From positions 62,001-126,000 of the forward strand of contig NZ_MLHN01000011.1 in the NCBI RefSeq assembly GCF_001999285.1: a DNA stretch of 64,000 nucleotides, given 5' to 3'. The notes under the pieces were generated by a model, which saw only the letters and a list, made by a program, of their open reading frames with translations, was not told the origin of the DNA and did not search any database. Position numbers and translations under genes: made by a program. Shown one piece after another: positions 8,126 through 23,971 of the stretch (its first letter is position 1; each line of letters starts with the position of its first letter). The stretch is from Rodentibacter genomosp. 1. Its GTDB lineage: Bacteria > Pseudomonadota > Gammaproteobacteria > Enterobacterales > Pasteurellaceae.

Positions 8126-8398
8126 TTATTTAGATTGGGGAACATAGCCTTCAATATGCACATCTTTTCCTTCAAATAGGAAGCTTACCATTTCTTGTTC
8201 AAGTAATTGGCGGTGCTCCAGATTCATCATATTCAGTTTTTTCTCATTCACTAACATCGTTTGTTTTTTTATCCACTCAGCCCAAGCTTGTTTGCTGATA
8301 GAATCAAAAATTCGCTTACCCAATTCCCCCGGATAAAGTTGGAAATCTAAGCCTTCCGCTTCTTTTTTGAGATACTCACAAAACACTGTTTTAGCCAT
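8126..8398 (-). CDS. yggX: Fe(II)-trafficking protein YggX
   Basis: A 90-residue protein beginning [18 protein letters not shown], the signature of YggX, which helps protect and repair iron-sulfur clusters under oxidative stress. Cys7 is the conserved cysteine. Its start overlaps the mutY stop by 8 nt, implying translational coupling. The neighbour mutY encodes a [4Fe-4S] enzyme, which suits the role. Confidence 0.96.
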
Positions 8399-9509
8399 AA
8401 TGATTCCTTACAAATTGCATTAATAAATTTTTTACAGGCTGCGCCAGCCCGATCTGTTCGGGATTTCTCGGATCATACCAATATTTGACCGCACTTGATA
8501 GACTTGGTTTGTATTCTGTTGGTTTTTCCATCACTTTACGCCAATCCCGATTTTCCTGCTCAATTTGAATATTATCTTGCTCAGCATAAATTGGATAAAT
8601 ATCTAAATGAAAATGGCTAAATGTATGACGAAAACTCGGCCAGCTCTGATAATACGAAATCCCTTCGTTGCTCAAATAAGTGAGTAAATCTTCTCGTGAT
8701 TCAAACTGAGGAAAACAGAATAATCCTCCCCATAAGCCCGAATTTTCTCGTTGTTCCAACCATACTTTGCCATTTTTAGACAGAATTAAAAAATACGTCT
8801 CTCTTTCCGGTAGCATTTTTTTCGGTTTTTTACCGGGAAATAACGCCCAACTTTCATTCTTATAAGCTAAACAACCTTTTTTCAGAGGACACAAGTCACA
8901 TTTTGGTTTTGTACGTGTACAAATCATGGCGCCAATATCCATCATCCCCTGATTAAAATCTGAGACGTACTGAGTTGGTGTAACCTCTTCCGTTAGATGC
9001 CATAAGCGATTTTCCACCTTTTTTTCACCCGGCCAACCTTCTACGGAAAAATAACGAGCTAACACCCGCTTTACATTACCGTCTAAAATGGGGTAAGGCT
9101 GATTCAACACAGAAGACAAAATTGCCCCTGCCGTTGAACGCCCCACTCCCGGCAATGCCCAAACTTGTTCAAAACTCGTAGGGAAAATGCCATTAAATTC
9201 ATCTCTCACTTTCTGTGCGGCTTTGTGTAAATTACGAGCCCTCGCATAGTAACCTAATCCAGTCCATAAATGTAGCACTTCATCTAGTGAAGCATTAGCA
9301 AGTTCGGTTACATTTGGAAAAGTTTTAATAAATCGTTCAAAATAAGGAATCACAGTCACAACTTGAGTTTGTTGAAGCATCACCTCAGAAAGCCATACGC
9401 CATAAAGCGTTTTATTTCTCTGCCAAGGTAAATGTTTGCGTCCAAATTGGTCATACCATTTCAATACCGATTGGGCAAAAGGCGCCTGTGGAGAAGATTT
9501 TGCTAACAT
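8391..9509 (-). CDS. mutY: A/G-specific adenine glycosylase
   Basis: A 372-residue base-excision enzyme that removes adenine mispaired with 8-oxoguanine. It shows the HhH motif [13 protein letters not shown], the catalytic Asp region [14 protein letters not shown], the cluster-binding cysteines in the pattern C-x6-C-x2-C-x5-C ([17 protein letters not shown]), and a C-terminal NUDIX-like 8-oxoG recognition domain. It is the first gene of the operon with yggX and mltC. Confidence 0.97.
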
Positions 9510-16110: not shown

Positions 16111-16143
16111 AAAAAAGCAAGGTGATTTACCTTGCTTTATTGA
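16111..16143. repeat. Left attachment-site repeat of the integrated element
   Basis: These 33 bp are identical to 23939-23971 in the same orientation. The repeat contains the stem GCAAGGT...ACCTTGC and flanking A/T runs, so it is itself an intrinsic terminator. The two copies bracket an all-minus-strand gene block with an integrase at its right end, hence attL/attR. Confidence 0.8.
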
Positions 16144-16212
16144 TAATCACAACAAAACAGAAGACATAACTGATTGATTTAATTAAATATCAAAAGCAAC
16201 ACAATCAAACCT

Positions 16213-16236
16213 TGTTACTAAACGTGTTACTAAAAA
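16213..16236. repeat. Candidate integrase arm-type site, left copy
   Basis: The 24 bp from TGTTACTAAACG to TGTTACTAAAAA are identical to 23843-23866 and contain GTTACTAAA twice in tandem. Position about 70 bp inside the left repeat, with a matching copy about 75 bp inside the right repeat, fits arm sites bound by the integrase N-terminal domain. Confidence 0.65.
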
Positions 16237-16339
16237 CAAAAGTCATCATTTAGTTTTGTCATATTCCGCTTAATCCCACATTATCCAACATAATCCCGCA
16301 TTGTTTTTATTTTCAAGTTAGTTAGCAACAGGGCTTGAC

Positions 16340-16375
16340 TAAAAAAATGAAAAATAGCCCTTTTTAGGGGCTATT
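16340..16375 (-). terminator. Terminator after the capsid gene
   Basis: An 8-bp stem AATAGCCC/GGGCTATT (16353-16360 with 16368-16375) with a 7-nt loop is followed on the minus strand by a T-rich stretch. It closes the activator-protease-capsid operon of the element. Confidence 0.8.
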
Positions 16376-16385
16376 CTGCGGGATT

Positions 16386-17309
16386 TTATGCACTAATGCA
16401 ACCCTTGATAAGGTAGCCGGCTGACTTGCCAACAAGGTGCGGTTTGTGAATATCCGTACAGCGGATGATTTGAACCTTTCCGCCTTTTTCCGGATAAGTA
16501 TCCACAAATAGCCCGCCTTTGCGTCTTACAGTGTAGCCATAAGACGGGTCAAAAATGCTGCCGTCTTTGCCTTTTGCTTTGGTGGATACATAAGCAAGAA
16601 TTATGCAATCCGTCCAAATTGGTTTTAATTCTCCCTCTATTTCTTGCATAGACGCACCAATTTTTACTTGTTCAACATCAATTAGCTCGGCAAATACAGC
16701 CGGTGTAAGAATGCCGGTGCGGGTGTATTTGATACACTCTAATAGCGTTTCATTTTTCTTTAATACGGCCCAAACATCAGCGGAAATGACGCAAACGTTA
16801 GGCTTTCGCCCAATGGTGGAATAAATCGCATTAATACCAGAATCAATCACCTCTAACGGATTTGATTTTGCATTGCTGAATTTTGCGTTGCCGGATAAGG
16901 TGATTTTGTTCTGCTCGATATAATTGGCTTCATCTTGCGCAAGTTTTGCTGTTTCGACCTCCCGCCCTAGGGTGATCAAATCTTGCACCACTGAAAGCGC
17001 ATATTTTTTCAATGGATAACTGGCATCATTGTCTTCTCGGTAGTCAATCGGGTATTCAATATCGTGTTCTTCAAGCTCGACATTGATTGCGCTGACATCT
17101 TCCGGGGTCAATCGGTTACTGTCGCCTAATACTTGGCGAACGGTGGATTGTTGACGGAAAGCCAAGCGCCCAAATTGTGGGATTTTGCCCGCTTCTTTCT
17201 CAATTTCCACCACAGGGAAAAGGCTTTCGCATACCATTTCGGCATTATAATAGCCTTGCGCCAATTCGGTTAAAATAGGGTCTTGAATTCGTTTTTCTGT
17301 TAAGCTCAT
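16386..17309 (-). CDS. Phage major capsid protein (probable)
   Basis: A 307-residue soluble protein. The N-terminal block (residues 1-60: RIQDPILTELAQGYYNAE, then LFPVVEIEKEAGKIPQFGR) is the type seen at the start of HK97-fold major capsid proteins of one phage group, where the FPV-x-EAGKIP-x-FG region contacts neighbours. It directly follows a protease/scaffold gene, the usual head-gene order, and has AAGGAG 5 nt before its start. It does not resemble phage Mu gpT by eye. No portal or terminase gene lies nearby. The fold is inferred, not shown. Confidence 0.65.
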   Translation of the reverse strand: MSLTEKRIQDPILTELAQGYYNAEMVCESLFPVVEIEKEAGKIPQFGRLAFRQQSTVRQVLGDSNRLTPEDVSAINVELEEHDIEYPIDYREDNDASYPLKKYALSVVQDLITLGREVETAKLAQDEANYIEQNKITLSGNAKFSNAKSNPLEVIDSGINAIYSTIGRKPNVCVISADVWAVLKKNETLLECIKYTRTGILTPAVFAELIDVEQVKIGASMQEIEGELKPIWTDCIILAYVSTKAKGKDGSIFDPSYGYTVRRKGGLFVDTYPEKGGKVQIIRCTDIHKPHLVGKSAGYLIKGCISA

Positions 17310-17324
17310 TTATTGCTCCTTAGT

Positions 17325-18188
17325 TTATTTATGAATAAGGTTAAACGCTGTTTTATAATCAATGTGGTGTTCTTTCATACATTGGCGGATTTGTTGGTCA
17401 AGTGCGATAACATCCGCCGGGGTATTTTCGGCATACTCCACTAAATCATTAGATTGCCCGCTTACCGCACGTTCTTTTGTGGCAAATTCCCCAAATTGAA
17501 TGATTTGAGGTTGAAGGCTTAAAAACTCCCGCACTTTTTGCGCAAGGCTTTCCCCTTCGTTGAAATTAATCACGCCCGCTTGGTCACATTCCTCCGCATA
17601 GTTCAAGATTTCTACGGCTTTTTCTCGTACAACCGGAGCAAGTCTGCCGGAATCAATTAAACTCTCGGTAAACTCTAACGTGTCTTTCTGTGCAGATTCC
17701 GCTTTTAGCCGCGCAATTTCCGCTTTAAGTGCGGTGATTTCGTCATCTTCAATATTCACCGCAAAATTTACAACTCCGCTTTCATTGTCGGTAAATTCAG
17801 GATTACGCAAGCCTTTCACCGCCGGAGGCATTGCCCCTAAAAATCCCACGTGGCGCAAATATAAATAACCGGGCTTTGGATTGTGTGGACTGTCGGCAAG
17901 ATAGAATGAGGCGGATACTTTTTTAAATCGCCCGGCTTCCACCATTTCAGCAAAATTCGGGTCAATCTGTGTCAACTCGGCTTTTAAAGTATCGCCCTCA
18001 ACATTAAGCCGTTTTACCCACGCATAAGCGGGGGCATTGTCTTTCGGGTGTCCTATCACTGCTGGGGCTTCGTGTAATTCGGGATTGTAAGCCGTCACGG
18101 CTTGGATTAAATCTTGTAATTTAATTTCTATCATTTGCCCACTAGCGTCCGGTCGTTTTCCGGTTTTAAAAATTTCAATGAGTTTCAT
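17325..18188 (-). CDS. Phage prohead protease/scaffold, Mu gpI-like
   Basis: A 287-residue protein. Residues 1 to about 130 (APAVIGHPKDNAPAYAWVK, AELTQIDPNFAEMVEAGR, KKVSASFYL) resemble the protease half of Mu-like gpI proteins. A coiled-coil stretch at about 147-170 (DDEITALKAEIARLKAE) and a helical C-terminus are typical of the scaffold half. In Mu-type heads the scaffold is the C-terminal part of the protease gene. It lies 15 nt before the capsid gene and overlaps the Mor-like gene by 14 nt. Its start has GGAGAAAG upstream. Confidence 0.7.
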   Translation of the reverse strand: MKLIEIFKTGKRPDASGQMIEIKLQDLIQAVTAYNPELHEAPAVIGHPKDNAPAYAWVKRLNVEGDTLKAELTQIDPNFAEMVEAGRFKKVSASFYLADSPHNPKPGYLYLRHVGFLGAMPPAVKGLRNPEFTDNESGVVNFAVNIEDDEITALKAEIARLKAESAQKDTLEFTESLIDSGRLAPVVREKAVEILNYAEECDQAGVINFNEGESLAQKVREFLSLQPQIIQFGEFATKERAVSGQSNDLVEYAENTPADVIALDQQIRQCMKEHHIDYKTAFNLIHK

Positions 18189-18492
18189 TTTGCGCTTTCT
18201 CCTGTTTTTTCTTGCTTTTTCTTAAAATTGAATAGATCCATTGAACTGATAATCCATACTTTTTCGCAAGTTCAGTGTGATTTATTCCGTTAAATTCCTC
18301 TATGATCGCTTTATCTCTGTCGGAAGTTTGATGGCTACTTTTCCATTTCGGGATATATAAATTCAATCCACCGCATTTAAACTGAAATGTTTTTAACGCT
18401 TTTGAACTTAGCTCTTCGCCCTTTAGTCCTAATGCTTCCGCTTCTTGAACGCTTGATTGGAATGCATAGGCAAATTCTTTAAAACTTAACAT
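18175..18492 (-). CDS. Mor-family transcription activator-like protein
   Basis: A 105-residue protein with a C-terminal HTH: RDKAIIEEFNG, HTELAKKYGLSVQWIYSILRK matches the Mor/C activator family of phage Mu, which turns on middle and late genes. The N-terminal half (residues 1-55) would be the dimerisation part. It is the first gene of the operon with the protease and capsid genes, so it could activate its own head operon or respond to a helper phage; both are inference. A GGGGG stretch about 12 nt upstream is the best ribosome site. Confidence 0.75.
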   Translation of the reverse strand: MLSFKEFAYAFQSSVQEAEALGLKGEELSSKALKTFQFKCGGLNLYIPKWKSSHQTSDRDKAIIEEFNGINHTELAKKYGLSVQWIYSILRKSKKKQEKAQNETH

Positions 18493-18558
18493 TCTTTTAA
18501 ATTTCCCCCTTAATACTCTTCAATAGGTGAACTTTAAACAAATTAAAAAACCGTTTCT

Positions 18559-18574
18559 TTTAAACTACTTTAAA
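18559..18574. promoter_or_regulatory. Operator-like inverted repeat, copy 1
   Basis: TTTAAACTACTTTAAA is an inverted repeat of TTTAAA around a 4-nt centre. The exact reverse complement occurs at 22164-22179, upstream of the HTH gene. It sits 67 nt upstream of the Mor-like gene. A shared repressor or activator site is inferred. Confidence 0.5.
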
Positions 18575-18616
18575 GAATTAAAAGAGAAAAAAACGTTGTT
18601 GAAAATGTTGTAAGAA

Positions 18617-18659
18617 AAGTTTTGAAAATTTTTTTCACTTTTTCACTTAATAGACTAAA
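18617..18659. repeat. Left arm of a long inverted repeat within the element
   Basis: About 37 bp here match the reverse complement of about 22466-22503 with two or three substitutions and a one-base length change in a T run. The shared core reads AAAAGTTTTGA, then a T run, then CACTTT-x-TCACTTAAT. The arms flank the primase/Icd/HTH region. Confidence 0.55.
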
Positions 18660-18750
18660 GCCTTGCGGCGTAAGGCTTTAACTTGTTTTGTCTAGGAAAA
18701 ATAAAATCACTTTTTCAAGTGATAATTTATAAAACACGGCTTTTTTATAC

Positions 18751-18774
18751 AAAAAAAGAGCGGTTGCCCGCTCT
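18751..18774 (-). terminator. Terminator after the primase gene
   Basis: A perfect 7-bp stem AGAGCGG/CCGCTCT (18757-18763 with 18768-18774) with a TTGC loop is followed on the minus strand by seven T. It lies 29 nt past the primase stop. Confidence 0.85.
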
Positions 18775-18802
18775 GTTTTTGTTGGTTATCCTTCCCACTG
18801 CC

Positions 18803-20605
18803 TTATTGATAAATCCCGATTTTTCCAATAAACATTCGTTGTCGGGTGTCCGTAGTGCATTTTGTCCTCATAGGGGATTTTTCCCCTAGTATTTTGAAGG
18901 CGTCGGCGATTGAATTATTAAAGCTAAAGCGATTTATTGGCGTTAATCCATTACATTCGCAAAAATACAAATAGGCGGAATAAATACTATCTGGTCTGCC
19001 GGTTCTGTCACCGTAGGGAATAAATCCGCCCTGAGCTTTGCCCACTCTTAGGGCTTTTTCGGTGCGGTGCTCTCTGATTTCAAAATGCCCTAGGAAGTCA
19101 ATTAAATGATTGGCTTCCCGTTTAATATTTTTCCCTTCGTCCAATTCCTTATAATCTTCTAAAATGGCTCTCGCTTTATCCGGTTCCGGAAAAAGGGCGA
19201 GAAGTTTATTCACTATGCCATAAACTTCCGCTTGCACTTTTTCCGTGAAATGCACGTCTTTTTTCTCTTTCGGGATTGCTCGGTCAAACGGGATAATAAT
19301 TCGTCTGCGCCCGATTCCGCCGTTGCGGTCAATAAAATTCAACGGATAATTTGTTACCAACATAAAAACAGGTGTGAGTTTAGTGGAAAAATCGCCAATA
19401 TAATTGATTTTGACGGTAATACTATCTCCGCCGGTAATGGCTTTCAATTCGTCCGCACTGCCTTTATAGGGCTTTTGGTCGGGGGAAATTGCGAGGCTTT
19501 TTCCGATTAGCATTGCCCGCTTTTTATCAATTTCCAATTCTTGCAAACTGATGTATGCCGTATTGCACCCACCGTTGATAATGGAGGCAATTTGGCTAAA
19601 TACCGATTTACCCGCACCCGCTACGCCTGTTGCTTCCAAAAATAAGCCCCATTCGTGCCGATTGGTGAGTACCATATAAAGCCCGGCTAAAATCGCGTTC
19701 TTTTTGTTGGTGTTGCCATTGCAAACAAATTCCAACCAGTCATCAAAGTGCGGTGTATTTTGGCTTTGAATATTGCACGAAAACTTTTCTATTCCCCGTA
19801 AAAAATGGCTAATATTATGCGCTAAAAATTCGCCCGTTTTCTTATTCAGTACGCCATTTTCAAAACCAATAAAATCAGGACTTTGGGCGGGGATTTCGTC
19901 CGCTTTCAAGACAATCAAATCCGCAATCGATTTTAAATGCCGTGCGGTATAATCTCCGCCAAATTCATCATAAAAATCCATCACTTTACGCTGTAAATGA
20001 TGTTCTTGCACAGGCTCCCAATATAAGCCGTTATATTCAAGCGGTTTCCCCTCATTAATATCTCGTCTTAGTGGTTTATCAATCCAATCTAAAAAGGCTT
20101 CGGCGATTTCTTTTTGTGTTGGCTTCTCGCTTAAAAAATCAATCATCACGGCTTTTTTATTCTGCTTTTCCGCCACCATCTCCGCCACGCTGTCGCCTGC
20201 CTGTTCTCGGGTGCGTTTAAGCCAGTCGGATAAATCCCCATTTTCTTGCAATACCCCTAAACTGTCGCACAAGGTAAGCCGTTGAACTTGGGTATTTTTC
20301 GCCAAATTTGCCACCACTGCCGGCAATGCTTCAGAATGGGAGAATTTGCCAAATTGACAAAGGCGAACGGAAGTGCGGTCATTTTCTGCAAGATTTAAGC
20401 GGTTGATTTCCGCTAATTGGCTTTCACCCATAATTACAGGTGGTTGTTTAGGATTGGTTTTAATGGCTTGTGCCAATAACCCCCATTCTAGCCCCTCACC
20501 TTTATTCCACGCCTGCCACGCTTTAGAACCGATTAAAATAATCAATTCCGCGCCGTCTTGTACTTGTTCCGCTAAATACGGGGCATTTTTACATACCTTC
20601 TTCAT
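18803..20605 (-). CDS. P4-alpha-like primase/SF3 helicase
   Basis: A 600-residue replication protein. The central D5_N-like region includes GFENGVLN (about residue 247) and the SF3 helicase domain has Walker A GVAGAGKS at 327-334, followed by the MLVTNYPLNF and RRRIIIPFDR motifs. It is shorter than P4 alpha (777 residues) and lacks an obvious N-terminal zinc-finger primase module; residues 1-160 instead look like a degenerate Toprim-type region. It probably drives autonomous replication of the excised element. It overlaps the upstream small gene by 17 nt. GGGAG precedes the start. Confidence 0.88.
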   Translation of the reverse strand: MKKVCKNAPYLAEQVQDGAELIILIGSKAWQAWNKGEGLEWGLLAQAIKTNPKQPPVIMGESQLAEINRLNLAENDRTSVRLCQFGKFSHSEALPAVVANLAKNTQVQRLTLCDSLGVLQENGDLSDWLKRTREQAGDSVAEMVAEKQNKKAVMIDFLSEKPTQKEIAEAFLDWIDKPLRRDINEGKPLEYNGLYWEPVQEHHLQRKVMDFYDEFGGDYTARHLKSIADLIVLKADEIPAQSPDFIGFENGVLNKKTGEFLAHNISHFLRGIEKFSCNIQSQNTPHFDDWLEFVCNGNTNKKNAILAGLYMVLTNRHEWGLFLEATGVAGAGKSVFSQIASIINGGCNTAYISLQELEIDKKRAMLIGKSLAISPDQKPYKGSADELKAITGGDSITVKINYIGDFSTKLTPVFMLVTNYPLNFIDRNGGIGRRRIIIPFDRAIPKEKKDVHFTEKVQAEVYGIVNKLLALFPEPDKARAILEDYKELDEGKNIKREANHLIDFLGHFEIREHRTEKALRVGKAQGGFIPYGDRTGRPDSIYSAYLYFCECNGLTPINRFSFNNSIADAFKILGEKSPMRTKCTTDTRQRMFIGKIGIYQ

Positions 20606-20936
20606 TTTTTATTCTCCCAATATTTAACAAATTTGTGCGTTGATTTTCAGGTAAATGTAAATAAAAATTCGCTACTTCTTTTGATGCAGATAAACTTTGT
20701 AATAACGTTATATTTTGCAAAAAGAGTTCGCCTAAATCATAAAATAAATCCCCTGTAATCACTTCCTTTTGTAAATCTTCATCAAGGTTGATGAGTTCTT
20801 TCATTATCTTTGCAGAACCTTGCAAGCCTAGTGAGATGGCTTGCTGCTTTTCAGTAAGAAATTTTTTATATTCTTCTAAACGTTCAGGGGAATTTTGATT
20901 AACCACAACATAAGCGTTAAAAATATCATTAAGCAT
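20589..20936 (-). CDS. Small satellite protein of unknown function
   Basis: A 115-residue, mostly helical, Leu- and Glu-rich protein (LNDIFNAYVVV at the start, helices rich in LQKEVITGDLFYDLGELF in the middle). I do not recognise a family. The start at 20936 is chosen because GGAGGTGG lies just upstream and its ATG overlaps the stop of the Icd-like gene by 8 nt, a coupled arrangement. The frame continues up to 20969 without a better site. It sits between the Icd-like and primase genes, where satellites often carry small replication or copy-control genes. Confidence 0.6.
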   Translation of the reverse strand: MLNDIFNAYVVVNQNSPERLEEYKKFLTEKQQAISLGLQGSAKIMKELINLDEDLQKEVITGDLFYDLGELFLQNITLLQSLSASKEVANFYLHLPENQRTNLLNIGRIKNEEGM

Positions 20937-21483
20937 AAACCACCTCCGAACGGTTGGAGGTGAAGACAATAGATACAGTTTTGGCGGTGTTTCCGCTTCG
21001 GGTTTGGTAGGTTTTCATTTTGAATTGTCTCTTATTAGTAATTAGTAAATTTGAAATGCCAACCTGTAAAAGGCGTGGCAAGGCTTCAACTACCGCTAAT
21101 AATCGGCTCGCCTTATTCGTGCGGATAAACTCCGCCTTATTTCGACGTATAGACCTTGCCACAAATTCGGCTTTGAATAGGTGTAGTAAACCTATTGAGG
21201 GAATTTGAGGTGTAAAAAATCCGCAAGTCTTACGGGTGCGGTGTCCGTTATTAGTGATAGTGCCACAGATACTACCCACATCAACGGCATTTGGCAAGCT
21301 GTGATTTTGTTCAGGTGAAAAAGTACGGTCATTTTTAAGATTGATTTTGCCGGCAAGGACAAGCACAAATTCACGGGATAAAACAGCACGGGCTTGTTGT
21401 TCGCTGTCAGCATTAATGCGGATTTTTTGGATATGATTGGTTAAATCGGTGCGACGTATTGCCGCAAAAATGAATTGATACAT
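20929..21483 (-). CDS. Host cell division inhibitor Icd-like protein
   Basis: The 184-residue form starts MYQFIFAAIRRTDL at 21483, with GGAG 9 nt upstream. The block IQKIRINADSEQQARAVL followed by REFVLVLAGKINLK is the recurrent core of satellite and prophage Icd-like (ash/kil-type) proteins that block division of the host. The same frame stays open to an ATG at 21921 that overlaps the HTH gene's stop, giving a 330-residue form, but the extra part would translate through the antisense-RNA leader, so I treat it as leader. The C-terminal half (residues 70-184) is Arg/Asn-rich and low in similarity to anything I know. Inhibition of division is inferred by family. Confidence 0.6.
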   Translation of the reverse strand: MYQFIFAAIRRTDLTNHIQKIRINADSEQQARAVLSREFVLVLAGKINLKNDRTFSPEQNHSLPNAVDVGSICGTITNNGHRTRKTCGFFTPQIPSIGLLHLFKAEFVARSIRRNKAEFIRTNKASRLLAVVEALPRLLQVGISNLLITNKRQFKMKTYQTRSGNTAKTVSIVFTSNRSEVVYA

Positions 21484-21493
21484 TTGTGTAACT

Positions 21494-21540
21494 CCACTGA
21501 ATAGTTTTTCAAGAGTTACCGCTCGGAAGTTTCCAGGCTT
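21494..21540 (-). promoter_or_regulatory. seqC-like target of the antisense immunity RNA
   Basis: On the minus strand this block begins AAGCCTGGAAACT and ends ATTCAGTGG, the same two words as the block at 21699-21728. Both words are complementary to the element inside the candidate CI RNA. It lies just before the Icd-like start and includes its ribosome site, so pairing could block translation or favour termination. Confidence 0.6.
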
Positions 21541-21545
21541 TGGGC

Positions 21546-21622
21546 GGTAACGTGTAACGGGCTGGAAAACTGCGATCAGTGGAACACAGCAAAGGGCGAA
21601 ACCTTTCCCGCTACACGCTACC
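21546..21622 (-). ncRNA. Candidate CI-like antisense immunity RNA
   Basis: A 77-nt segment whose ends pair in a 16-bp stem (21546-21561 with 21607-21622) containing two G-U pairs. The 45-nt loop holds a small AAAGG/CCTTT hairpin and, at 21562-21582, a stretch complementary to both flanking blocks (CCACTGAT and AGTTTTCCAG on the RNA strand). Satellite P4 makes a 69-nt CI RNA with one seqB element complementary to flanking seqA and seqC, processed from the leader and causing early termination of the operon. The size, order and complementarity match this plan. Processing and activity are inferred. Confidence 0.65.
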
Positions 21623-21664
21623 ATAGATAGACGCTCTAGGCGTTCTTTAGGTGTGTGTAAACCA

Positions 21665-21698
21665 CGCATAAAAAAACACGCTTTCGGCGTGCTATGCG
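21665..21698 (-). terminator. Leader terminator within the immunity region
   Basis: On the minus strand the stem CACGC/GCGTG (21687-21691 with 21677-21681) is followed by seven T. An outer stem CGCATA/TATGCG (21665-21670 with 21693-21698) can extend it. It lies between the HTH gene and the candidate antisense RNA, next to the seqA-like block, so RNA pairing there could control termination. Confidence 0.65.
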
Positions 21699-21728
21699 CC
21701 ACTGATAGATAGTTCGAGTTTCCAGGCT
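21699..21728 (-). promoter_or_regulatory. seqA-like target of the antisense immunity RNA
   Basis: On the minus strand this block reads AGCCTGGAAAC at one end and ATCAGTGG at the other, repeated at 21494-21540. Both words are complementary to 21562-21582 in the candidate CI RNA. It is directly upstream of the leader terminator. Confidence 0.6.
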
Positions 21729-21917
21729 CGGCGGTCGTTTTTTGCGACTGCGTGGGAATAATGCCAAAATTGACCGCACTTTGTAAAGCCTTTTTGGCAA
21801 AAAAAGAAAATATTTTGTTAGAATGTGAATCAGTCATTGTTTTGCTCGCTTGGCTAAATGATGATAAGGGGCTTTTTGGTGTTGGCGCACTGAAAAGCCC
21901 CACCTGTTTTTGTGTCT

Positions 21918-22100
21918 TCATTGGTTGATACTCGCTAAATAACGTTGGACTTCTGTCGCTTTGTAAAGCGTGGTTGCGCCAAATTTCGTTTTCTTGATTT
22001 TTCCCTCTCGGGCTAATCGGTCTAATTTGCTTCTTGATACGCCAAAAAGCTCGCCCATTTCGCGCACGGTGTAATGCTTGTCGTTGGTTTGTGTGTTCAT
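21918..22100 (-). CDS. Small HTH DNA-binding protein, AlpA/excisionase-like
   Basis: A 60-residue protein with a MerR-type winged HTH: YTVREMGELFGVSRSKLDRL, then AREGKIKKTKFG and an ALYKATEVQRYL-like end. Such proteins in P4-like satellites and PICIs act as AlpA-type activators or excisionases. AGAGGG lies 8 nt before the ATG. It is the first gene of the left operon, upstream of the immunity leader, and its own upstream region carries one copy of the 16-bp operator-like repeat, so autoregulation is plausible. Confidence 0.7.
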   Translation of the reverse strand: MNTQTNDKHYTVREMGELFGVSRSKLDRLAREGKIKKTKFGATTLYKATEVQRYLASINQ

Positions 22101-22163
22101 TTGTTTTCCCTCTTATTATTAATTCATCGTAAGTCAAGATAAATCAGCGTGGTGCAAAAATCT

Positions 22164-22179
22164 TTTAAAGTAGTTTAAA
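22164..22179. promoter_or_regulatory. Operator-like inverted repeat, copy 2
   Basis: TTTAAAGTAGTTTAAA is the exact reverse complement of 18559-18574. It lies 64 nt upstream of the HTH gene start, nearly the same spacing as copy 1 has to the Mor-like gene. Confidence 0.5.
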
Positions 22180-22465
22180 GATTTTTTATTCATACAAAAT
22201 AATAAAAAGATGAAAATATTTAATAACACTTAAAGCACGATTTAAGCTGGGTTAAATTGTGATAAAGGAAAATTGAAATGATGTTACATATAGTGAAAAG
22301 CTCTCATTTGCTTGGTTTAGTAAATCCTACTTTAACCGGAACAAAATGATTTTTTCCATTTCCTACTTAAAGCGGAATTTTTCCACTTAATCACTTGTCT
22401 TTCTTATTTTTATCACTTCTTTATTTTTCCTTTTATTTCAATATGTTAAAAAGAAAAAATAATAG

Positions 22466-22503
22466 ATTAAGTGATAAAGTGAAAAAAAAATCTCAAAACT
22501 TTT
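22466..22503. repeat. Right arm of the long inverted repeat within the element
   Basis: This is the reverse-complement partner of 18617-18659. It sits in the AT-rich gap next to the integrase terminator. The arms are about 3.8 kb apart and bracket the replication and immunity genes. Confidence 0.55.
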
Positions 22504-22534
22504 AAAACGAAAAGAGAGAAAGGAAAACTGCGGA

Positions 22535-22561
22535 CGAAAAAATAGGGCGATTGTTCGCCCT
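22535..22561 (-). terminator. Terminator after the integrase gene
   Basis: A perfect 7-bp stem AGGGCGA/TCGCCCT (22544-22550 with 22555-22561) with a TTGT loop is followed on the minus strand by a six-T run. It lies 23 nt past the integrase stop. Confidence 0.85.
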
Positions 22562-22583
22562 GTGGTGTGATGATGATTGGTGA

Positions 22584-23798
22584 TTATTTGAATAACTCCG
22601 TGCCTTGTGAGCATTGTTCGACATAGTCGCCCCAATCTTGCATAATTTTCTTGCGTTGCTTCATATAGGTGGCGTGGTTGTAGGATTGGCTTACATTGCT
22701 CCCTGTTCGGTGAGCTAAACAGGCTTCGGCGTGTTCATAAATCACATTCGTGTCGGCTAAATGCGTACGGGCCAACCCTCTTAAACCGTGGGCGGTCTGC
22801 TTTCCGGCATATCCTAGGCGTTTAATTGCCATATTTGCGCTTGAAGAGTTCATTGGCTCGTGGTTGTTGCCCCGTTTCGGGAATATATACTTAAAACGCC
22901 CGGTAATCGGCTCTAGTTCCTCTAATATCTTAATGGCTTGGCTTGATAATGGAATAATATGCACTTCACGGGCTTTCATTCTCTCTGCCGGTATTGTCCA
23001 TAATTTCTTGGCTAAATCAATTTCCGACCATTGCGCCCCGCTCGCTTCATTCGGGCGGGTCATTGTGAGCATTTGGAATTGAACAAGAAAGCGGGTTTGC
23101 GGTTGTATTTTGGCATTTGCTAACGCATCCATAAATGCCGGTAATTCTTCGCTATTTATGTGCGGATTATTCTCTTTTTTGTGCTGTTTAAGAGTTTTAT
23201 TCATCTTCAAGCAAGGATTGAACGGAATAAGCCCACCATTCACGGCAAAATTTAATATTTCGTTGATATAACCCGCTAGGCGGTTTGCCATATCAATATT
23301 ATTGCGCTGTTCAACTCTTTGTAATGGGATAAGGGCAAGAGTGGGGACTATTTCGGCTATTGGGTATGAGCCAATAAAAGGGAATATATGAAGGCGCAAA
23401 CTACCCCAATATTTCGCAAGAGTCTTATCAGCTATTTCCCCCTGTTTCTTTGCCCGCCATTTTTCCGCCACCGCTAAAAAGGTGTTCGCTTCTGCAAGTT
23501 CTTGTTCACGTTCTAGGCGTGCTTTATGGGTTTGAGGGTCTATCCCTTGAGCAAGTAAAGCCCGCCATTCTTCACGCAGTTGCCGTGCCTGTGCAATGCT
23601 GATTTCAGGGTGGTTGCCTATGGTGAAATTTGTTCTTTTTTTGGTGGTGGGGTGATAGTAATTAAAGATCCAAGTTTTCGCCCCTGTGGTTTTAACACGT
23701 AGGCTTAATCCTCGCCCGTCTACAAGGTTATATTCTTTTTCTTTCGGTCTTGCCCTTTCAACCTCTGTATTAGTTAAAGGCTTGGTAACACGTGCCAT
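22584..23798 (-). CDS. int: Tyrosine-recombinase integrase, P4 type
   Basis: A 404-residue integrase. The N-terminal arm-binding domain (residues 1-90) carries the GRGLSLRV and TIGNHPEISIAQAR motifs of the P4-type DUF4102 region. Catalytic residues can be placed as Arg248 (TRPNEASG), His337 and Arg340 (HGLRGLART), His363 (CLAHRTG) and Tyr373 (SYNHATY), so the enzyme looks intact. The ATG at 23798 has AAGGGGA upstream; a longer frame to 23819 lacks one. It is read away from the adjacent right repeat and probably recombines the tRNA-Ala terminator site. Confidence 0.95.
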   Translation of the reverse strand: MARVTKPLTNTEVERARPKEKEYNLVDGRGLSLRVKTTGAKTWIFNYYHPTTKKRTNFTIGNHPEISIAQARQLREEWRALLAQGIDPQTHKARLEREQELAEANTFLAVAEKWRAKKQGEIADKTLAKYWGSLRLHIFPFIGSYPIAEIVPTLALIPLQRVEQRNNIDMANRLAGYINEILNFAVNGGLIPFNPCLKMNKTLKQHKKENNPHINSEELPAFMDALANAKIQPQTRFLVQFQMLTMTRPNEASGAQWSEIDLAKKLWTIPAERMKAREVHIIPLSSQAIKILEELEPITGRFKYIFPKRGNNHEPMNSSSANMAIKRLGYAGKQTAHGLRGLARTHLADTNVIYEHAEACLAHRTGSNVSQSYNHATYMKQRKKIMQDWGDYVEQCSQGTELFK

Positions 23799-23842
23799 AA
23801 AATCCCCTTTTAGTAACAAGATTTCGTGTTACTTTATCATAA

Positions 23843-23866
23843 TGTTACTAAACGTGTTACTAAAAA
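23843..23866. repeat. Candidate integrase arm-type site, right copy
   Basis: Identical in sequence and orientation to 16213-16236. A related GTTACT word also occurs at about 23828, just upstream of the integrase start, so integrase binding may also regulate its own promoter. Confidence 0.65.
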
Positions 23867-23938
23867 TTACGGTCAACATAACTCAGAATGAATCAAAATA
23901 AACGATAAAATGCCCTGAAATGCTTTATTTTAAACGAA

Positions 23939-23971
23939 AAAAAAGCAAGGTGATTTACCTTGCTTTATTGA
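23939..23971. repeat. Right attachment-site repeat, also the tRNA-Ala terminator
   Basis: The 33-bp direct copy of 16111-16143. On the minus strand it forms AAGCAAGGT/ACCTTGCTT followed by eight T, the terminator of the adjacent tRNA-Ala gene, whose CCA end is only two bases away. The identity between the two copies stops before the tRNA itself. Confidence 0.8.

Follow-up and report, generated by a model that had tools for sequence, protein, structure and literature searches.

A C4-type immunity RNA and a putative second antisense RNA share one reading frame in a P4-related satellite of Rodentibacter

The window analyzed here, a 64,000-nucleotide stretch of a Rodentibacter genomosp. 1 contig, contains a mobile element whose minus-strand leader carries an RNA that, by its sequence, is a genuine member of the known C4 / P4 CI kind, together with its two target blocks (Table 1). 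Farther downstream in the same reading frame lies a group of features, designated module 2, that appears to contain a second, previously unrecognised antisense-type RNA working like C4. The explanation that we consider best for the whole region, with a probability of roughly 0.8, is that it is the immunity leader of a P4/PICI-type satellite in which the C4 lock and module 2 would act in series. This explanation rests on RNA family membership, covariation of structure and of words, conservation of the reading frame, and the position of the promoter-like site.

Table 1. Features of the element in the window. Coordinates are window positions; a dot indicates that no strand applies.
Feature	Coordinates	Strand	Basis
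Mobile element	16111..23971	.	bounded by 33-nt direct repeat 16111-16143 and 23939-23971, adjoining tRNA-Ala
Tyrosine integrase	22584..23819	-	Pfam PF00589/PF13356, phrog_1
AlpA/excisionase-like HTH gene	21918..22100	-	PF12728, TIGR01764, phrog_66
Promoter-like TTTACA-18-CATTAT (PLE position)	21758..21787	-	sequence
isrK-type leader RNA (seqA block and terminator)	21671..21751	-	Rfam RF01394, 50.9 bits, cut-off 50
Target block A (a1/b1, seqA equivalent)	21699..21728	-	complementary to C4 words
Intrinsic-terminator-like hairpin and T run, 3' of block A	21670..21693	-	
C4 antisense RNA (CI equivalent)	21540..21628	-	Rfam RF01695, 65.2 bits, cut-off 45; fold z -6.6
Antisense words a' (CCACTGAT) and b' (TTTTCCAG) within C4	21562..21582	-	
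Target block C (seqC equivalent)	21492..21540	-	complementary to C4 words
eta-like open frame through block A, terminator, C4, block C, kil-like gene and module 2	20929..21921	-	Pfam Phage_ASH
kil/Icd-like gene, in frame with eta, module 2 inside	20929..21483	-	NCBIfam NF033153, 71 bits
Module 2 promoter-like TTGCCA-17-TAGTAT	21269..21297	-	
Module 2 putative early target (holds CTAATAA)	21245..21264	-	
Module 2 terminator-like hairpin and T run	21214..21241	-	
Module 2 antisense-type hairpin RNA	21071..21172	-	model R1, 108.8 bits (window copy among 21 training sequences); covariation
Module 2 putative late target (holds CTAATAA), beside start signal of 29-codon ORF (ATG 21018-21016)	21028..21049	-	
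Small ORF (ATG at 20936), start overlapping end of eta frame, before primase	20589..20936	-	
P4-type primase/helicase	18803..20605	-	D5_N, DUF5906, phrog_864; TIGR01613 82 bits, below cut-off 108.7
Mor-family late activator	18175..18492	-	PF08765
Head maturation protease-like	17325..18188	-	phrog_976
Major head protein	16386..17309	-	phrog_1005

The element is a satellite-like mobile island within the genome of a Pasteurellaceae bacterium. The empty site, consisting of the joined outer flanks, was found intact in four of 15 genomes of the genus, the genome of the window being among the 15. On the minus strand, the integrase gene is followed by the AlpA-like gene, the leader, the kil/Icd-like gene, the small ORF, and the genes for the P4-type primase, Mor, the head protease, and the major head protein. 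Thus int, alpA, and a P4-type primase are all present, the latter with a TIGR01613 score under the cut-off of that family. The small ORF had no family match among Pfam, PHROG, and NCBIfam profiles. In contrast to P4, no match to psu, sid, or delta was detected among the nine ORFs scanned with Pfam and PHROG, and we therefore consider the element P4-related in its control and do not class it as a P4 phage. The order of zones resembles that of Gram-negative PICIs, namely int-alpA, an immunity/Bro zone with C4 and isrK, replication, and late genes (PMC10111431, excerpt). The element differs from PICIs in its late part, which comprises the head protease and the major head protein and had no accepted terminase match among the same nine ORFs. 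A PHROG match of the AlpA-like protein to a terminase small subunit (E 0.00075) was attributed to the shared HTH and rejected. In named genomes, the closest relatives of the primase are those of Rodentibacter rarus, with 81% over the best segment (residues 1-164), and of Necropsobacter, with 75%. A blastn search of the element against phage records returned four records, the best of which covers just 9%.

Several side observations concern elements of this kind. A second repeat of 37 nt (86%) lies near both ends of the element (16213-16249 and 23843-23879) and perhaps corresponds to integrase arm sites. The Rfam int-alpA RNA (RF02996) was found in two distant relatives of the element (L135 and L139) and was not reported for the window. 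One genome (G087; loci L128 and L129) harbors a head-to-tail array of near-identical units of a 7,872-bp satellite and accounts by itself for 27 C4 matches.

The first-pass annotation had read the leader as an antisense circuit resembling P4 CI. This interpretation is supported, since the RNAs matched by the Rfam C4 and isrK models, and their order, are the same in the window as in phage P4, where C4 was located at 8420-8507(-), isrK at 8615-8692(-), and c4-a1b1 just under its cut-off. In the window, C4 passes its cut-off clearly (65.2 versus 45 bits) and isrK narrowly (50.9 versus 50 bits, a borderline score). The individual elements described in that annotation were also recovered. The words AGCCTGGAAAC and CAGTGG occur in each of the two blocks; CCACTGATCGCAGTTTTCCAG, the central element, is flanked by the two halves of a long stem, and block A is followed by a hairpin plus T run. 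The fold of 21540-21628 has a predicted energy of -39.3 kcal/mol (z -6.6 relative to shuffled sequences), and the CAGTGG of block C continues into GGAG ahead of the kil-like ATG (21483). The longest matches of word a' to blocks A and C are 8 and 8 nt, and those of word b' are 7 and 7 nt. None of 5000 dinucleotide-shuffled versions of the flanks yielded these four matches together; taken singly (a'-A, a'-C, b'-A, and b'-C), they were reached in 19, 33, 179, and 143 of the 5000. A SymR-like Rfam match on the opposite strand (21832-21904, +) was sub-threshold (32 bits, cut-off 61).

The window and P4 also share the word-to-target logic that links CI to seqA and seqC, a long frame with a nested start, an AlpA-like gene upstream, and a primase downstream. 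They differ in the words themselves and in the presence, in the window, of a second antisense-type module before the primase. The C4 RNA of phages P1 and P7 bears the same name and likewise acts by sequence-specific pairing near a ribosome-binding site, its target being the ant antirepressor mRNA (PMC12197685, excerpt) in place of the kil/Icd-like gene of the window; the likeness to P1/P7 is one of description. In Gifsy-1, an isrK leader precedes a processed RNA located inside an ORF (isrK-orf45-anrP), activation by IsrK in trans has been reported, and the downstream genes are unlike those of the window (PMC4825925, excerpt). The same text calls IsrK a structural homologue of P4 SeqA. The Rfam C4 and isrK models have already been reported to find immunity RNAs in PICIs (PMC10111431, in the part available).

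C4 matches were present in 96 of 140 Pasteurellaceae genomes, including that of the window. A set of leaders was assembled from 125 loci taken from the listed C4 matches, best scores first, plus P4; not included were most G087 copies, a single match located at the end of a contig, and five tandem partners, which were examined apart. Removal of four duplicates gave 122 distinct leaders with P4 and 121 without. Word a', located in the loop, had a match of at least 7 nt upstream in 104 and downstream in 115 of the 121 loci; for b', the figures were 112 and 119. Non-cognate combinations of different words reached this length in 795 (5.5%, upstream) and 1221 (8.5%, downstream) of 14338 cases for a', and in 579 (4.5%) and 441 (3.4%) of 12936 cases for b'. 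The words are short and often AT-rich, so that single matches mean little and the cognate excess carries the weight; the counts are not independent, as the loci are related by descent, and the word windows were chosen after the first examples had been seen. All four matches (a' at least 7 nt, b' at least 6 nt) were retained in 100 of the 121 loci, and at least one was absent in the other 21. Within these bounds, the antisense words covary with both targets. Pairing not maintained by compensatory changes, which the first-pass annotation had named as grounds for abandoning the P4 CI reading, was not what we observed: the stem predicted for the window, examined over 77 distinct 89-nt class I sequences (defined below), was paired in 2199 of 2310 cells and showed double changes in 17 of 30 pairs.

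Code diversity was high, with 55 a' words, 21 b' words, and 93 combinations in 121 loci. A second satellite of the same genome (L002) has a leader near-identical to that of the window, with one base different in each word, and the target words in blocks A and C carry the same change as the antisense words. The predicted duplexes of the window a' with its own targets (-11.2 and -13.5 kcal/mol) weakened to -5.0 and -7.3 kcal/mol on the targets of the other satellite. The corresponding comparison for b' was asymmetric, as b' of the second satellite was predicted to pair at -9.5 kcal/mol with the window targets and at -8.3 kcal/mol with its own. Exclusion of same-code pairs within genomes had been predicted. 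In 33 genomes, with tandem neighbours counted as pairs and G087 omitted for its repeated copies, six of 68 pairs were identical versus 0.45 expected (genomes G043, G137, G086, G005, G007, and G138). Same-code copies are not kept out of one cell. C4 modules also occurred in tandem, in nine arrays of which one is a triple (L190 = G066:C37, L191 = G066:C12, L131, L040, L075, L070, L071, L065, and L076). The a' words of tandem neighbours differed in 10 of 10 steps, and the eta frame was continuous through both modules in five of the 10.

The eta-like frame of the window starts at the stop codon of the AlpA-like gene (overlap ATGA), passes upstream of the promoter-like site, and runs through the RNA into the in-frame kil-like gene; the same script returned the same arrangement for P4. 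The stop of an upstream ORF was located at the eta start in 32 of 107 loci, a lower bound given the short flanks. The reading frame set by the downstream ATG was open throughout C4 in 104 loci of the set of 122 that includes P4. The two other forward frames were open in 2 and 8 loci, and the reverse frames in 8, 5, and 5. On the basis of the C4 sequence only, the loci were divided into class I (108, counting P4) and class II (14). Between block A and C4, class I displayed 29 distinct spacings that fell into one phase in 93 of 108 loci (11 and 4 in the others), versus a spread of 5/5/3 for the 13 class II loci in which block A was located. Between C4 and the ATG, the spacing fell into one phase in 101 of 107 class I loci. 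A preference for one phase was also seen for that interval in class II (7/3/3 of 13), and the interval therefore separates the classes less well. In nine C4 copies of 88 nt, the ATG is located one base later than in the commonest copies of 89 nt, so that the frame is kept. The frame extended past block A on the upstream side in 101 of 108 class I loci. In 99 of them, the -10 element of the best promoter-like site ended 30-34 nt before block A, and in 91 of the 108 the promoter-like score was at least 9 of 12, versus 14.5% of mononucleotide-shuffled segments. A strict scan detected a terminator after block A in 51 of the 108. Among 28 C4 loci external to the Pasteurellaceae, the frame was open in 10 and the other frames in 9 and 3, indicating that the eta frame is no general property of C4.

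The Pfam family Phage_ASH (PF10554) scored 82 bits on the eta frame of P4, and its cut-off was passed by five of the six frames examined; it maps to 20929-21921 in the window and to 8171-8821 in locus L035. The Phage_ASH family in these elements is the translation of the C4 immunity leader. The same leader frame is matched by PHROG 1743 and 6928, both named 'transcriptional repressor', and the P4 record still labels the overlapping ORF a cI gene product; this label may be the source of the PHROG name. The coupling of eta to the alpA homologue and the prevention of termination by eta translation have been described (PMC10111431, excerpt, citing Forti et al., 1999). The eta/kil logic is already published, and what is added here is the family-wide statistics on frame and words.

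Module 2 spans 21297-21016, downstream of C4 and in the same frame as eta and kil. The kil-like frame is shorter in the close relatives L134 and L142 than in the window, where its last 131 codons had relatives in 26 of 140 genomes. Alignment of the DNA of that part (22 copies) revealed a hairpin RNA flanked by two words: ahead of the RNA come a promoter-like site, the early word, and a terminator, in this order, and behind it comes the late word, immediately in front of an ATG. The 21 RNA copies aligned had been found via the protein, not the RNA, and the structure drawn from them, after the first examples had been seen, was paired in 97.6% of 495 cells with double changes in 16 of 24 pairs. 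Slid versions of this structure were paired in 30-42%. Four of five covariation measures were reached by 0 of 500 shuffles; the fifth, based on further pair types, was reached by 89 of 500. RNAalifold alone predicted 20 pairs, all of which belong to the 24 drawn.

The word in the hairpin loop was compared with the early and late sites in 26 of the 38 strong matches to the model of this RNA, R1 (24 distinct loci, 18 words). Matches of at least 6 nt were found with the early target in 23 and with the late target in all 24 distinct loci, versus 69 and 66 of 540 for non-cognate words. In the window, the word matches 7 nt at each site, a combination seen in five of 5000 mononucleotide shuffles. In all 26 loci, the module 2 frame was that of the downstream ATG, the other two frames being open in 0 and 0, and it extended at least 130 nt upstream of the RNA in 23 of the 26. 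A C4 RNA was located on the same strand within about 0.7 kb of module 2 in 19 of the 20 loci scanned (of 25), upstream in 17 and downstream in 2; there was none at L231. R1 had no match at E<=1 in P4, in two P1 stretches, neither of which carries an annotated c4, or in the second satellite L131. It also had none at this threshold in the close relatives L134, L138, L142, L143, and L144, indicating that module 2 is not needed for this kind of satellite. A blastn search of module 2 against phage records returned three records at E<=1, two of them at E 0.3. In Pasteurella phage Pmp8 (OR544139.1, 4470-4566), the similarity is 79% identity to the hairpin part over 29% of the query, and the stretch sits under a gene annotated 'transcriptional repressor'. 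An exact pattern derived from the conserved internal loop of the RNA was present in 20 IMG/VR stretches (viral contigs L241-L260).

Rfam returned nothing on the module 2 RNA at E<=1 in window positions 20500-23900. The family sRNA-Xcc1 (RF02221, cut-off 53 bits) was not matched in 11 of 12 module 2 loci, including that of the window, at E<=0.5; the twelfth, L203, gave a sub-threshold match of 32 bits on the module 2 RNA. At E<=0.001, R1 had matches in 46 of 140 Pasteurellaceae genomes. Their scores fall into two separate groups, 38 matches above 91 bits and the remainder at 46.5 bits or less. In the order, 15 of 295 genomes matched, four of them outside the family. Nine weak R1 loci (40-67 bits, two near-identical) lie outside the training of the model; Rfam calls seven of them sRNA-Xcc1, five over the cut-off and two below, and had no match for L237 and L238. 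With one tandem partner added (10 rows, 9 words), the weak loci matched their own words at the early site in 10 of 10 and at the late site in 9 of 10 cases, versus 6 and 2 of 88 for non-cognate words.

The same word logic was examined in sRNA-Xcc1 itself, for which Rfam reported matches in 69 of 140 Pasteurellaceae genomes and 20 of 274 genomes of the class. In 60 RF02221 loci, the mean cognate match exceeded all 5000 permutations at both sites, in and outside the Pasteurellaceae. A fixed stretch of 22 nt was used, which raises the non-cognate rates at the threshold of at least 7 nt to 13-20%. At that threshold, Pasteurellaceae loci matched in 30 of 31 (early) and 25 of 32 (late) cases, versus 147 of 918 and 199 of 980 for non-cognate words. 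Outside the family, the early site matched in 22 of 27 cases (non-cognate, 132 of 698) and the late site in a modest 13 of 28 (101 of 752). Ten chosen downstream proteins were examined over their first 56-70 residues: nine matched Bro-N, KilA-N, P22_AR_N, AntA, or SymE, with two of the Bro-N matches scoring under the cut-off, and the tenth had no match. At L263, where the protein is SymE by Pfam, both words were visible by eye in the leader and at the start signal. Close tandem pairs of sRNA-Xcc1 matches were also seen (L235, L240, and listed pairs in G011, G012, G027, and G064).

Thus, sRNA-Xcc1 loci share with module 2 the order promoter, word, terminator, RNA, and word as well as the word logic, a criterion that is defined here and is not that of Rfam, and the module 2 RNA is unlike sRNA-Xcc1 in scoring below the RF02221 cut-off. 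Judged from sequence comparison, there is good evidence that the module 2 group is related to sRNA-Xcc1, mostly below its detection by Rfam, and follows C4 logic; the word test suggests that sRNA-Xcc1 may be a second C4-type antisense repressor. The literature, as excerpted, describes sRNA-Xcc1 as an sRNA with predicted distant targets (PMC2996969), as a symE-linked RNA of integron cassettes (PMC12444791), and, in Xylella, as an RNA carried by vesicles, one genome having a cluster of five copies and another a C4-isrK-sRNA-Xcc1 group (PMC12189769). No antisense or immunity role in cis was found in the portions of the literature surveyed, which did not include the 2011 sRNA-Xcc1 paper.

Expression, processing, termination, and immunity are predictions of the following scheme, as is the function of module 2. 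A constitutive promoter (21787-21758) would produce a leader beginning with block A, and most transcripts would stop at the hairpin behind it. Read-through transcripts would yield the C4 RNA, whose words a' and b' would pair with blocks A and C. The kil-like gene has its ribosome-binding site directly beside the CAGTGG of block C, so that pairing at this block is expected to prevent kil translation, and the uncoupled transcription would then terminate before the primase. Transcripts initiated upstream of alpA would escape, as translation of the eta-like frame through the whole leader would override termination, as published for P4. The module 2 RNA would apply the same logic to the point where translation next begins ahead of the primase, making C4 and module 2 two antisense locks in series in one frame.

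Other explanations were weighed for the C4 part. The leader RNA (21751-21671) might act in the manner of IsrK, opening the downstream start in trans by pairing with the C4 region and serving mainly as an induction switch. The isrK match lies just above its cut-off, and IsrK of Gifsy-1 pairs with orf45 and activates anrP (PMC4825925, excerpt), yet the gene downstream is here kil/Icd-like and the architecture equals that of P4, where the pairing represses. We consider this mode unlikely as the main function, although it is compatible with repression by C4 and does not exclude it. It is also rather doubtful that C4 blocks translation at block C alone, as in P1, the termination arm being unused: block C does abut the start signal and strict terminators follow block A in only about half of the class I loci (51/108), but block A is kept with a positioned promoter (99/108) and the gene order is of the P4 type. 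That words and frame simply reflect coding conservation of an Ash/Icd protein, the RNA being incidental, would account for the coverage of the leader frame by Phage_ASH and for the conservation of the frame. However, stem pairs change on both sides, words change along with both targets, and the nine 88-nt C4 copies offset the missing base by an extra base before the ATG, so that the intervening protein changes and the frame stays. This explanation is hardly credible and was rejected, since words and stems covary while the protein between them varies.

For module 2, the alternative is a translational attenuator or a decayed C4 module providing no antisense lock. The close relatives that lack it and the shortness of the word matches in the window would fit such a role. 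Strong covariation of the pairs argues against it, as does the presence of cognate words at two outside sites, also in distant matches outside the model, and on these sequence features we regard it as improbable.

Considering the module 2 RNA and sRNA-Xcc1 jointly, we lean, with some reserve, toward a second large class of C4-type repressors, which would guard phage antirepressor-type genes (Bro-N, KilA-N, P22_AR_N, and AntA), SymE toxins, and the replication leaders of satellites. The layout proposed for this class is one hairpin RNA with a specificity word in its loop and two targets in cis, before a terminator and at a start codon. Satellites would carry several such locks one after another in a single uninterrupted frame, the words differing between locks, resulting in a multi-key immunity. 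If this is true, the 'virulence' and vesicle-RNAi readings of sRNA-Xcc1 would need revision. Module 2 points to a way in which an orphan RNA family may act; in the texts as excerpted, that family has been reported from integron cassettes and genomic islands as virulence-linked or vesicle-borne. The C4 part extends the classic paradigm of RNA immunity from P4 to much of the Pasteurellaceae.
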